Below are positions 11,093-29,481 of a stretch of DNA of 64,000 bases, piece after piece; the stretch's first letter is position 1, and each line of letters begins with the position of its first letter. The translations under genes and the position numbers were made by a program. The notes beneath the pieces were generated by a model. The model saw only the letters and a program-made list of their open reading frames with translations, was not told the origin of the DNA and did no database searches. This stretch comes from Candidatus Nitrospira nitrosa (lineage in GTDB: Bacteria > Nitrospirota > Nitrospiria > Nitrospirales > Nitrospiraceae), in NCBI RefSeq assembly GCF_001458735.1, contig NZ_CZQA01000008.1, positions 186,001 through 250,000 of the forward strand. Direction: 5' to 3'.

Positions 11093-11908
11093 TTACGTCT
11101 CCCGTGAACGGCGAGCCGCCATGACAGCGTCACAGACCGTCCGGAGTGTGTCCTCCGAGACATCCGTGATGCCTTGATCGGTCACTAGCTTCGCGGTGGG
11201 ATAAATCCCTCGCACGAGGTCGGGCCCACCAGTCCCAACATCGTCATCCGCGGCATTGTAGAGTGCTAAGACTGCCAGCTTGATCACCTCCGCCTCGGAA
11301 AGATTCCGCTGGAAGTGTTCCCGCATCGTATTGCGAGCGTCTTTTCCCCCGGACCCAATCGCATGGTAATCGGATTCTTCGTATCGCCCGCCGGTGATAT
11401 CGTACTTGAAAATACGCCCCTCCCCGCGTTTCAGATCATAGCCGACATAGAGCGGCATCACGACCAACCCCTGAAACACCATGGGCAAGTTCGCCTTCAC
11501 CATCTGGCCAAGCTTATTGGCCTTCCCTTCGCATGAAAGCGGCATACCTTCCAATTTTTCGTAATGCTCCAACTCAGTCTGGAAGAGCTTGGCCATCTCG
11601 ATACAGGGACCGGCCGCCCCCGCGATCGCCATCGCCGACCACTCATCGATCTTGAATACCTTCTCAATCCGGCGATCAGCGATCTGAAATCCTTCCGTCG
11701 CGCGACGATCCCCGGCAATGATCACTCCCTGCTGATACTTGATCGCCAACACAGTCGTCGCAGTGGGCACCGTCACGGTACCGGCGGTTCGTGCCTGATC
11801 GGAATTCGAGGCGAGCCCTGAGGCTCCGAGCGCCAGGGCCGGATAATGTTGGGACAGGAACTCCACGAAACTCGATCCATCGTGGTCAGGGAGGTGGGGT
11901 AACTTCAT
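11093..11908 (-). CDS. prcB: Proteasome beta subunit PrcB (catalytic)
   Basis: PrcB forms the inner catalytic rings of the proteasome. Self-cleavage of a propeptide exposes the nucleophilic N-terminal threonine. Here a 50-residue propeptide precedes TTVLAIKYQQGVIIAGDRRAT, so T51 is the predicted active residue, with the usual D and K further on (GDRRAT, RIEKVF). The total of 271 residues is normal for a precursor. The motif SGGKDARN is also present. Its ATG overlaps the stop of a small repeat-derived frame upstream, and an AGGG site lies six bases before it. Confidence 0.96.
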   Translation of the reverse strand: MKLPHLPDHDGSSFVEFLSQHYPALALGASGLASNSDQARTAGTVTVPTATTVLAIKYQQGVIIAGDRRATEGFQIADRRIEKVFKIDEWSAMAIAGAAGPCIEMAKLFQTELEHYEKLEGMPLSCEGKANKLGQMVKANLPMVFQGLVVMPLYVGYDLKRGEGRIFKYDITGGRYEESDYHAIGSGGKDARNTMREHFQRNLSEAEVIKLAVLALYNAADDDVGTGGPDLVRGIYPTAKLVTDQGITDVSEDTLRTVCDAVMAARRSRET

Positions 11909-12075
11909 CGTGGCCCTGACAGGAGGTTGAAAAAGTCCGCCAGCTTCGTGCTCGCGTCGTTCAGAGGCTCAACATACGGGACACCGTATGCCTCGCGGCT
12001 TCGCCCGCTGCGACCTTGCTGGACAGCCTTTTTGACCATCCCGTGAGCAATCTTCATTGATTGGCTACCTTCCAT
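11905..12075 (-). CDS. Small repeat-derived ORF between dop and prcB
   Basis: A 56-codon frame begins MEGSQSMKIAHGMVKKAVQ and ends FFNLLSGPR, with its TGA overlapping the prcB ATG (ATGA). A second start at 12057 has a better ribosome-binding site (GGAAGG). Most of it lies inside the palindromic repeat 11920-12043. It occupies the spot where pup is found in actinobacteria but has no Pup features: no DEIDDVL helix and no C-terminal GG(E/Q). It may be only a lucky open frame, or it may couple translation of prcB to dop. A functional product is doubtful. Confidence 0.3.
   Translation of the reverse strand: MEGSQSMKIAHGMVKKAVQQGRSGRSREAYGVPYVEPLNDASTKLADFFNLLSGPR
11920..12043. repeat. Dispersed palindromic repeat, copy in the dop-prcB spacer
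   Basis: This imperfect palindrome of 124 bases is closely related to the copy at 27209-27330. The outer arms contain AAAAAG and CTTTTT plus CCAGC and GCTGG. The inner hairpin is GAGGC-ATACGG-loop-CCGTAT-GCCTC. The corresponding stem in the other copy is GTAC/GTAC, so pairing is kept while the sequence changes. Confidence 0.75.
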
Positions 12076-12137
12076 GGTTTTTGTGCTTTGCGGCTACGTC
12101 GAAGTAAGTTCCGGCAGCTTACGAAAACCACCGTTCG

Positions 12138-13640
12138 TCACACCTTGAGTTTGTCGAGAAGCACATCAACCGAATCGGAAGAATCCAGTAGCGCTCCAGT
12201 CAAGGCTTGTGTCCCACGATGGGGATCCATCAGGGGAACTTTCTTGATCGTGGTATCGCCGGCATCGAATAAGACTGAGGTCCAACTGGCACCGTACAAG
12301 GATTTCGAAAACTTGCTCACACAACGGCCACGAAAATACGCTCGCGTGCCCGTCGGAGGTTGGGACTCGGCCCGTTGGATTTCTTCCTCATCAACGATCC
12401 GCTCGATCAGCTGACTCCGCTCCAGCGTATAGAAAAGCCCTTTTTCAGGACGCACGTCATGGTATTGCAGGTCCATTAATTTTACGCGTGGGTCGTCCCA
12501 TCCACAGCCTTTTCTCTCCATGTAGGACTCAATCAAGTGTCGCTTCGCCACCCAATCCAATGAATGGACCAACAAACGCGGATCCTGCTCGAGCTTGTTG
12601 AGAACCTCTTCCCAACGGAGCAGCACATCCTGAATGACGGGACCAGGTGCTTGCGAGGCATAAAATACCTTGGCCGCGTTCAAGTAGGCCCGTTGGACCG
12701 CCAGCGCCGTCGTGGGTCTTCCACCTGCCAACTTCACCGTCTGCTTGACTTCCAGGTCTCGCGATACCTGTTTGAACACCCGAACCGGCTCTTCAAGTTC
12801 CATCTGCGGCAAATCGGCACCAGCCTCCAGCAGATGCAACACAATGTCCAAGGTTCCGACCTTGAGATAGGTGGAGAGCTCCGCCATGTTGGCATCGCCC
12901 ACAATCACATGCAGCCTCCGAAACCTGGCCGCATCCGCATGCGGTTCGTCGCGCGTGTTGATGATCGGGCGCTTGACCATCGTGTTCAGATCCATGAGAC
13001 ACTCAAAAAAGTCCGCCCGCTGAGAGATCTGATACTCCGCTGGGGTGGTCTGATTTTCAGCGCCGACTTTTCCCGCCCCGGCAAAGATCGGCCTGGTCAC
13101 AAGAAACGGGGTCAGCACACGCGCAATCCGATCGAACGACACGGTCCTCGAGACTAGATAGTTCTCATGGTACCCGTAGCTGTTGCCCTTGCCGTCGGAG
13201 TTGTTCTTATAGAGGGTATAAACTTCAAAGCCTCGCGCGCGGGCCATGGTCTGCAGGCATGAAGCCAGAATACGCTCCCCTACTCGCTCAAACGCCACGA
13301 TCTCTCGTGCCTGGGAACACTCGGGCGTCGAGTACTCAGGGTGAGCCCCGTCCACATACAACCGTCCGCCGTTCGACAATACCTTGTTCAGCTGTCGGTT
13401 ATAGTCAGGGTTCGGGCGCTCACGCTCACCGTCGACCTCAAACCCACGTGCATCGACCAGGGGGTTCTCGTTTTCATAGTCCCAGATTGCGGTTGGAGCC
13501 GCCAGGTTCGGATAGTGCCCGATCACGGCAAAGGACCCGGACACCGGATCCATCGCCGAAGCATCTCTCGAGGCAATCCCGAACTCAGTTTCCGTACCAA
13601 TCACCCGGGCGGAGTTCGTGGAAGTCTGTTCGTTCATCAT
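12138..13640 (-). CDS. dop: Depupylase Dop
   Basis: Dop removes Pup from tagged proteins and, where Pup ends in Gln, deamidates it to Glu. This 500-residue protein has GTETEFG (E17, E19), a Dop-type insertion around residues 35-80 absent from PafA, YVDGAHPEYSTPECS with the catalytic-type D97, KNNSDGKGNSYG, and INTRDEPHADAARFRRLHVI. The Pup encoded at 61900 already ends in Glu, so only the depupylase activity should be needed here. It starts five bases after the arc stop. Two adjacent ATG codons (13640, 13637) are possible starts. Confidence 0.95.
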   Translation of the reverse strand: MMNEQTSTNSARVIGTETEFGIASRDASAMDPVSGSFAVIGHYPNLAAPTAIWDYENENPLVDARGFEVDGERERPNPDYNRQLNKVLSNGGRLYVDGAHPEYSTPECSQAREIVAFERVGERILASCLQTMARARGFEVYTLYKNNSDGKGNSYGYHENYLVSRTVSFDRIARVLTPFLVTRPIFAGAGKVGAENQTTPAEYQISQRADFFECLMDLNTMVKRPIINTRDEPHADAARFRRLHVIVGDANMAELSTYLKVGTLDIVLHLLEAGADLPQMELEEPVRVFKQVSRDLEVKQTVKLAGGRPTTALAVQRAYLNAAKVFYASQAPGPVIQDVLLRWEEVLNKLEQDPRLLVHSLDWVAKRHLIESYMERKGCGWDDPRVKLMDLQYHDVRPEKGLFYTLERSQLIERIVDEEEIQRAESQPPTGTRAYFRGRCVSKFSKSLYGASWTSVLFDAGDTTIKKVPLMDPHRGTQALTGALLDSSDSVDVLLDKLKV

Positions 13641-26946: not shown

Positions 26947-27207
26947 GTGCGAAAATCGCCCTGGGTCCTGATCGTGTTTGTGGTCATCGGAGGTCTACTG
27001 GGCGGGATCCTTGGCGAAATTCTCCATGTGATGGCACCTCAGGGCACCATCCAAAGTATTTTCTCAACGCATTTCATGCCCGGCATTAATCCGCCCCTGA
27101 CCGTGGATCTTGTGTTGATCAAACTCGTATTGGGGTTCAGCCTCAAAATCAACATATTGAGCATCCTCGGCATGTTTGTCGGCATCTATCTGTACAAGCA
27201 CGTCTAA
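26947..27207 (+). CDS. DUF4321 small membrane protein
   Basis: This 86-residue protein has two membrane helices (about residues 6-28 and 62-84) joined by a short polar loop, and matches the DUF4321 pattern with its GGLLGGILGE turn and C-terminal ILSILGMFVGIYLYK. No function is known for the family. The GTG start has a strong GAGGAGA site. A palindromic repeat begins two bases after the stop codon, and uvrB converges from the other side. Confidence 0.8.
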   Translation: MRKSPWVLIVFVVIGGLLGGILGEILHVMAPQGTIQSIFSTHFMPGINPPLTVDLVLIKLVLGFSLKINILSILGMFVGIYLYKHV

Positions 27208-27208
27208 G

Positions 27209-27330
27209 CAGGGTGCTAAAAAACTCCGCCAGCGGCGTTCTCACATCGCTCAGAGGCTCACCGTACCGAAGCGTACGCCTCACCTCTTCGCTCGCTGCGG
27301 CCTTGCTGGACGGCCTTTTTGAACATCCTG
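27209..27330. repeat. Dispersed palindromic repeat, copy after the DUF4321 gene
   Basis: This 122-base imperfect palindrome has arms CAGGGTGCTAAAAAACTCCGC on the left and a right arm ending TTTTTGAACATCCTG. The middle reads GAGGC...GTAC...GTAC-GCCTC. It shares most of its sequence with the copy at 11920. On the minus strand it can be read as MFKKAVQQGRSERRGEAY before a stop, and a shifted frame continues with YGEPLSDVRTPLAEFF, similar to the frame in the other copy. It may also act as the terminator of this gene. Confidence 0.75.
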
Positions 27331-27405
27331 AATTATTGTGGTCCGAGTGTTGTACGAAACGGTCTCGCTGCATTGTTGCGAATCACCAAGCTTTCCTGCA
27401 ACTTA

Positions 27406-29433
27406 TTAATCCTTCGCATCTAACGTCTGAAGTCGCAACGCCCTGATCCGATTCCGCAACTCTGCGGCTCGTTCGAAGGCCAGCTCCTTCGCAGCCGCTT
27501 TCATCTCGATCTCCAGTCGTTGAATCAGTCGATCGGTTGACTCTGCACTTCCATATTCCGCATCGGATTCCGCCGCAAGCGGTAATTGAACGTAATCAAG
27601 GTCTGTGACCGCGTACTCAAGCGACGGAATCCCTTTCGTAATACCGACCGGCGTAATGCCGTGGATGCGATTGTACTCGGCCTGAATCCCACGACGGCGA
27701 GTCGTCTCGTCAATGGCCTGCTTCATCGAATCCGTCACACCGTCGCCATAAAAAATTACCCGCCCTTCGAGATTGCGTGCTGCCCGGCCGGCCGTTTGGA
27801 TCAACGCGCGGTAGGAACGCAGGTAACCTTCCTTATCCGCATCCAGAATCGCAACGAGGCTCACCTCGGGAAGGTCCAACCCCTCTCGCAGTAAATTGAT
27901 TCCGACCAAGACATCAAACGTTCCACACCGGAGATCCCGGATAATCTCAGCTCGCTCAAGCGTTTTGATGTCGGAATGGAGATAGCGAACCTTTACGCCC
28001 AAATCGTGATAGTACTCTGTCAAATCCTCCGCCATCCGCTTCGTCAGCGTTGTCACAAGCACTCTTCCCCGCTTAGCCACCTCTGCACGAACTTGGCCGA
28101 GAAGATGGTCAACTTGCCCTTTGGCCGGTACGACTTCGATATGCGGGTCCATCAGTCCGGTCGGACGAACGATCTGCTCCACGACCTCATGACCTGCATG
28201 CGTGAGCTCGTAGGTGCCGGGTGTGGCCGACACATACACGACCTGATTGAGACACTGTTCGAACTCCACAAATTTTAACGGTCGATTATCAACAGCCGAC
28301 GGAAGTCTGAATCCGTACTCCACGAGAGTCCGTTTCCGTGAAAAATCCCCCTCATACATGCCTCCGACTTGAGGGATGGTCGCGTGAGACTCATCGACGA
28401 TCAACAGAAACTCCTTCGGAAAGTAATCCAGCAACGTGGGGGGCGCCTGGCCCGGATTTCTTCCGCTGAGATGCCGAGAATAGTTTTCAATTCCGTGGCA
28501 ATAGCCCATTGCTCGGATCATCTCAAGATCAAACTTCGTACGCTGCTCAATCCGCTGAGCCTCCAAGAGCCGTCCGGATTTTCTAAAATAGGCAACACGC
28601 TCGTCGAGTTCTTCCTCAATACCGGTAATGGCCCGCTCATAGCGATCCGGCGCAATCAGATAGTGGGTATTCGGGTAGATCGCAACCTTGGGCAGTTTTC
28701 CCAAGGACTTCCCAGTGAGCGGATCAATTTCATGAATGGCATCCACCATATCCCCGAAGAGTTCGATGCGTACGGATTTCGCTTCCGACGACGCAGGGAA
28801 AATTTCGATCACATCTCCGCGCGCCCGAAAAGTTCCACGATGAAAATCCACATCATTGCGTTCATATTGAATATCCACCAACTTCGACAAAAGCTTATCG
28901 CGCCGTGCTTCGAGACCGACCTCTAGATAAATCAGCATGTCATGGTACACCTCCGGCGACCCCAGCCCATAGATACAGGAGACGGAGGACACAATCAGAA
29001 CATCATTTCGTTGTAACAGCTCTGTCGTCGCGGAGTGACGCATCTGATCAATGGCGTCATTGATCGAGGAGTCCTTGGCAATGTAGGTATCACTCTGCGG
29101 GATATAGGCTTCCGGCTGATAATAATCGTAATAACTCACAAAATACTCGACGGCGTTATGGGGGAAAAACTGTTTGAATTCCTGGTAGAGTTGTCCGGCC
29201 AGAGTTTTGTTGTGCACGAGCACCAGCGTCGGCTTCTGGACACGTTCGACAAGATTAGCCATCGTAAATGTCTTGCCTGATCCTGTGACTCCCAACAAAA
29301 CCTGATGCTTGGTTCCTGCGTGGATTCCGGCCGTCAGCTTGTCGATGGCGGCAGGCTGATCTCCACAAGGCTTGAAGGGGGCATCCAGCTTAAAGGGCGG
29401 CACGACACCCTCCCGCGATGCGACGGATCGCAT
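27406..29433 (-). CDS. uvrB: Excinuclease ABC subunit UvrB
   Basis: UvrB is the damage-verifying helicase of nucleotide excision repair, loaded by UvrA. The protein of about 675 residues has Walker [14 protein letters not shown], the beta-hairpin region [24 protein letters not shown], helicase motifs V-VI ([26 protein letters not shown]) and the C-terminal UVR domain ending near ALRLQTLD. Starts are possible at TTG 29439, ATG 29433 and GTG 29403; the last has a GGGAGG site. The partner uvrA is at 38773 on the other strand. Confidence 0.96.
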
Positions 29434-29481
29434 ACCCAATCAACATCAAAACCCTCCCACCATAGCCCTCAAAAGTAAAAA

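Follow-up and report, generated by a model that had tools for sequence, protein, structure and literature searches.

The window analysed here, a stretch of 64,000 nucleotides of Candidatus Nitrospira nitrosa (G000:C8:186001-250000), contains two similar palindromes at positions 11920-12043 and 27209-27330. The question is what kind of element they are, how they reached their positions, and whether their fold rather than their sequence has been under selection. An initial annotation had proposed REP-like elements moved by a transposase encoded elsewhere, or a decayed gene family. The evidence given below makes it probable that these repeats are a MITE family of the Nitrospirales, which has IS5-type ends and a conserved hairpin fold and lands at stop codons.

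The palindromes belong to a family of the Nitrospirales

The two palindromes were found at the places annotated initially and share the outer arms and the GAGGC/GCCTC clamp described there. Their core is common as well: a degenerate core pattern matched exactly these two sites in the window and none in 100 shuffles. At least 40 copies were detected by BLAST in the 4.42-Mb genome. A first covariance model, which was trained on 31 copies, gave 96 matches at E ≤ 1e-3 in the whole genome. As a few of these represent one copy on both strands, the copy number is about 90, including the two copies of the window. The length of the palindrome differs among copies (124, 122, 123, 125 bp and so on; range 122–126 bp).

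The first model also matched 38 of 39 relatives; in most members of the genus, the copies number in the tens. A second one was derived from the copies between purH and purD. Of 118 genomes from across the phylum, it matched 53, including every sampled member of the window's own family. Among the matches listed in a core scan of 84,980 genomes, all were Nitrospira/Nitrospirales records. The covariance models of Rfam gave no match at the gathering score in the window, and a single chance-level match (E 0.17) over six loci. The family is abundant in a major lineage of nitrifiers and occupies many junctions between genes, right at the stop codon.

The mobile unit and its target duplication

The size of about 122 bases annotated initially applies to the palindrome. 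The mobile unit is longer, for the copy at 27209-27330 about 27208-27405. An alignment of the flanks showed that homology continues for about 77 bp beyond the right side of the palindrome and then ends sharply. The complete unit of about 200 bp consists of the imperfect palindrome of 122–126 bp followed by these 77 bp, and encodes no protein. It is bordered by terminal inverted repeats of about 16 bp (type CAGGNTGNNGANAAA), the right end being an inverted copy of the left one.

In the named copy, whose parts are all given for the plus strand, the left target 4-mer CTAA (27204-27207) was identified from the sequence; its last three letters, TAA (27205-27207), form the stop codon that ends the upstream gene for a DUF4321 protein (26947-27207, plus strand; Pfam PF14209, ORF list). 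The full unit, which belongs to subfamily A and comprises palindrome and right part, was delimited by alignment of extended copies to 27208-27405, with an extra G at 27208. The palindrome (27209-27330) has an outer stem (27209-27227 / 27312-27330), the arms CCAGC (27229-27233) and GCTGG (27305-27309), and an inner GTAC pair (27263-27266 / 27273-27276). Internal loop 1 (5' side GGCGTTCTC, 27234-27242; 3' side GCTGCGGCCTT, 27294-27304) is nearly invariant across families. Internal loop 2 consists of GCTCACC (27256-27262; consensus GCTCAAC) on the 5' side and GCCTC (27277-27281) on the 3' side. The right part (27331-27405) ends in a decayed right terminal inverted repeat, and the right-end homology of the unit reads TTTCCTGCAACTTA-TTAA. 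The right target 4-mer TTAA (27406-27409) includes the uvrB stop codon (gene at 27406-29439, minus strand; Pfam UvrB domains). The element thus lies between two convergent genes.

The second copy (all parts on the plus strand) has the left 4-mer CTGA (11916-11919), which differs from CTAA by one change, the palindrome at 11920-12043, and a probable right part at 12044-12119 with a low right-end profile score, decayed beyond a clear right repeat. This copy (11916-12122) sits between the Pup ligase gene pafA (12138-13640, minus strand; Pfam PF03136), which ends to its right, and a proteasome-subunit gene (11093-11908, minus strand; Pfam PF00227), which starts 7 bp to the left of its 4-mer.

Identical 4-mers flank 55 of 102 full copies after removal of duplicates, compared to a mean of 25.1 and a maximum of 40 in 20,000 shuffles. 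The most frequent matching pairs are CTAG/CTAG (30), CTAA/CTAA (11) and TTAG/TTAG (11). For pairs that both fit YTAR, left and right 4-mer also agree in the first (Fisher p 4e-9) and in the last letter (2e-5). Full units make a 4-bp target duplication, YTAR. They show the features of a MITE: they are short and non-coding, generate the YTAR duplication, and have ends in common with an autonomous element (CAGGCTGTTGACAAA and CAGGCTGCGGAAAAA occur both in the MITE and in insertion sequences).

About half of the sampled copies have no right repeat and carry YTAR on the left side only; directly 3' of the palindrome, it was found in 5 of 113 and 0 of 40 such copies. Over the family, the 4-mer is mostly CTAG, CTAA or TTAG, with GTAG as a minority. 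A target duplication accounts for the one-sided YTAR only if the right part has been lost. Palindrome-only copies may therefore have a decayed right part, or may result from a different, one-sided mobility.

At G000:C1:1554253-1556201, two full copies of the same orientation, separated by about 1.5 kb, may form a composite unit.

Copies are enriched at stop codons

In 34 of 102 full copies (19 for the right side) and 47 of 111 palindrome-only copies, a long upstream ORF terminates in the left YTAR, compared to 10% for random YTAR. In other genera, many copies start exactly after TAG, TAA or TGA. The site between the DUF4321 gene and uvrB is occupied in three genomes, once in inverted orientation; its use was seen in contigs L260 and L426. 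At the DUF4321 stop codon, the copies of G000 and of G054, a genome of another genus, have the same orientation, whereas that of L260 belongs to a different subfamily and is inverted. Since the site is occupied by different subfamilies and orientations, the stop codon was hit more than once.

The purH-purD site is filled in most family members and additionally in G023 and G026 of another family. It is cleanly empty in G029, G035 and G037, so that G035 and G023 provide a comparison of an empty and a filled site, and G058 and G073 contain chimeric and tandem copies. As sites can be hit repeatedly, this occupancy is ambiguous: copies may have been retained for long, may have been inserted anew, or both. 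Several species of genus g3 have the gap in front of sucC filled, and the flanks are the same. Other palindromic repeats (TGTCATTGCGAGG..., CCCTCTCCC...) were seen in the purH-purD gap of G045 (L294) and in the sucC gap (L380, L381, L383, L384), as if both gaps accepted many repeat families. A diverged copy in G027 (L162) lies in a ribosomal protein operon between apparent rplW and rplB, directly after the rplW stop codon.

With respect to neighbouring genes, 53 copies are in tandem sense, 34 in tandem antisense, 39 in convergent and 15 in divergent arrangement; these counts rest on crude ORF-based gene calls, and the bias is mild. This gives little backing to a simple function within the upstream mRNA, and it may be as DNA that the folded strand matters.

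Insertion sequences with the same ends

In sister Nitrospira genomes, intact insertion sequences of about 1.3 kb with DUF772/DDE transposases were found (L347, L349, L352, L364, L367). Their ends, CTAG-CAGTCTGCTGAAAAACC, CAGGCTGCGGAAAAAC or CAGGCTGTTGACAAAC with YTAR outside (CTAT on both sides in L349), equal those of MITE subfamilies. The transposases match IS5 and IS1182 models; the protein of L347 scores above the IS5_4 cut-off, that of L367 below the cut-offs of both the IS5 and the IS1182 models. YTAR is the duplication motif of IS5 (PMC10359306). Within the genome of the window, none of the PF01797, PF05598 or PF01609 transposases has the ends of the family; nor was an intact insertion sequence found that carries them, and the single DUF772 gene is broken and lacks the ends. 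Where pairs of ends lie 0.6–3.5 kb apart in named contigs, no transposase was recognised by eye among the intervening ORFs.

Judging from the shared ends, we infer that transposases of the IS5/IS1182 (DUF772) type move the MITE in trans. Such a DDE enzyme would insert the unit at YTAR with duplication of 4 bp. As the stop codons TAA and TAG often lie within YTAR and insertion there would leave the upstream protein intact, surviving copies would accumulate on stop codons, and one stop codon may be hit repeatedly.

A further MITE-like family of about 138 bp (CTAGCAGTCTGCTGAAAAA...) occurs at G000:C8:84166-84304 and G000:C9:164486-164624; its ends are identical to those of the L347 insertion sequence.

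The hairpin fold is conserved and strand-biased

Nearly all shuffles folded less well than the two copies of the window (z of the copies -2.9 to -4.2). For 16 purH-purD copies, the alignment was scored against a structure that was specified from the sequences by the analyst. In this set, 89.9% of the cells are paired, and two-sided changes occur in 23 of 37 pairs and in all four helices. Two-sided cells number 92, compared to 32.3 in shuffles, and the covariation score is 0.418 versus 0.155 in shuffles and at most 0.10 in slid controls. Among 105 diverse copies, two-sided changes affect 31 of 37 pairs, although this alignment was fitted to the model and leans towards it. The internal loops contain the letters that vary hardly or not at all (GTTCTC, TCAAC, GCCTC, CTGCGGCCT). 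The differing inner stems that still pair, which had been noted for the two copies, are real and part of this family-wide covariation.

Selection on the hairpin fold, as proposed in the initial annotation, is consequently well supported by the comparison of sequences. Matching of the terminal repeats can explain at most the outermost helix; helices 2–4 covary in the wider set, which allows for a separation of both effects that two copies alone could not provide.

On the plus strand, A.C mismatches (179) exceed G.U pairs (84), which indicates better pairing of the minus strand. In 197 of 231 copies, this strand is the more stable one, with a mean of -58.6 compared to -52.5 kcal/mol; shuffles account for about 2 of these 6 kcal. 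By our reading, the loop 2 consensus would form a tandem G.A and two G.U pairs on the minus strand. This better-folding strand is antisense to the gene that ends at the left. We infer that the folded strand, in the form of either single-stranded DNA or RNA, is recognised by a protein or process. Should this strand have a function, the family would offer a testable case of a mobile element in which structure, not sequence, is under selection.

Alternative explanations

That the repeats are REP-like elements moved by a RAYT, i.e. a Y1 tyrosine transposase acting on a hairpin with a one-sided tetranucleotide, is improbable. Such a mechanism would be compatible with the palindrome-only copies, which have NTAR on the left only and in some cases GTAG, with the better folding of one strand, and with the RAYT-like proteins encoded in the genome (L035, L036). 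However, Y1 enzymes are not known to make a target duplication, whereas the units of about 200 bp have terminal inverted repeats and a duplication copy by copy, and their ends match IS5-type elements. Furthermore, none of the six PF01797 genes has a family copy within ±1.5 kb, and L031 has its own IS200-type hairpins. The element is also 3–6 times longer than REPs (20–40 bp, PMC3733652). For full units, a RAYT is thus disfavoured; of the transposition proposed initially, the multi-copy palindromes and a mover encoded elsewhere stand, with DUF772/IS5-type insertion sequences of the same ends in place of the RAYT. It is rather unlikely, too, that the palindrome forms a structured module in its own right, of which a folded single strand, the one antisense to the upstream gene, is read by a protein via the two invariant loops, that IS5-type ends were added to this module in some lineages, and that the one-sided form persists and spreads by its own mobility. 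That the peptide M-[VF]-KKAVQQGRS... stems from a decayed gene family, the other proposal, is hardly credible. A minus-strand frame is open through the copy at 11920-12043, and the peptide similarity is real; it results from shared DNA, however, as no frame is open in all copies. The differences in copy length are not multiples of three, a given minus-strand frame is open throughout in just 16–39% of copies, about the level of shuffles, and none of the reading frames is conserved. Predictions of short peptides within the repeats are probably spurious.

It is conceivable, albeit doubtful, that the hairpin is a cis-acting RNA of the upstream mRNA (a stability element, RNase site or terminator) which is under selection, with mobility being secondary. 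The adjacency to stop codons, the avoidance of divergent gene pairs, the fact that many genera carry a copy at purH-purD and several species of a single genus one at the sucC gap, and the precedent of ERIC and YPAL (PMC2229807) agree with such a role. It is at odds with the better-folding strand being antisense to the gene whose stop codon lies at the left end, with the only mildly biased orientation, with the copy inside the rplW-rplB pair of G027 and with the clean empty sites at purH-purD; moreover, no terminator-like match was found on the element. An integron attC was also considered on the basis of the stop-codon adjacency and the antisense-strand folding, and rejected because the attC end boxes were not seen at the ends in an informal look. 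Finally, the compensatory changes might reflect mutation instead of selection. Template switching, a known process for quasi-palindromes, copies changes from arm to arm within long palindromes; those studied here are long, and chimeric and tandem purH-purD copies exist in G058 and G073. Hairpin-templated repair or template switching could be the source of part of the covariation. As the full explanation it is unlikely: it would erase mismatched internal loops, yet the loops are the most conserved parts, and it predicts no strand bias, contrary to the observation.

Comparison with known systems

A palindromic MITE near stop codons is a kind of element already known from other bacteria. Reviews of similar elements were found in the literature (PMC2229807, PMC10969869, PMC3733652) and none on the Nitrospira family, in a search of partial coverage that gives weak evidence of absence; this MITE family and its conserved fold appear to be undescribed. 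The unusual part is the conserved, strand-biased fold with its invariant loops.

REP/RAYT repeats resemble the palindrome-only copies in having a palindrome with a tetranucleotide at one foot. They differ from the Nitrospira family, which has no linked RAYT here, in size, terminal repeats and duplication: a REP is a palindrome of 20–40 bp with a one-sided GTAG, whereas the Nitrospira palindrome comprises 122–126 bp and GTAG is a minority. YPAL (RU-2) of Yersinia is reportedly inserted just downstream of stop codons. Compared by described features, it is likewise palindromic and mobile, is comparable in size (168 bp), and has many copies, target duplications and filled and empty sites, but the duplications range between 3 and 26 bp and the inverted repeats lie inside the element (PMC2229807), whereas the Nitrospira family has a 4-bp YTAR and true terminal repeats that match IS5-type elements. 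ERIC (IRU, RU-1) of enterobacteria, also compared by description, is a palindromic intergenic repeat of about 127 bp with tens to hundreds of copies and an RNA fold (PMC2229807, PMC10969869); in contrast to the family described here, it has TA at its termini, belongs to a different phylum, and is presented in the reviews with no mover named. MITEs derived from the IS5 family share with the Nitrospira unit its non-autonomous nature, IS5-type terminal repeats and the YTAR duplication (motif in PMC10359306). Most of the Nitrospira unit, in contrast, consists of a structured palindrome which the insertion sequences lack and whose fold is conserved across families.
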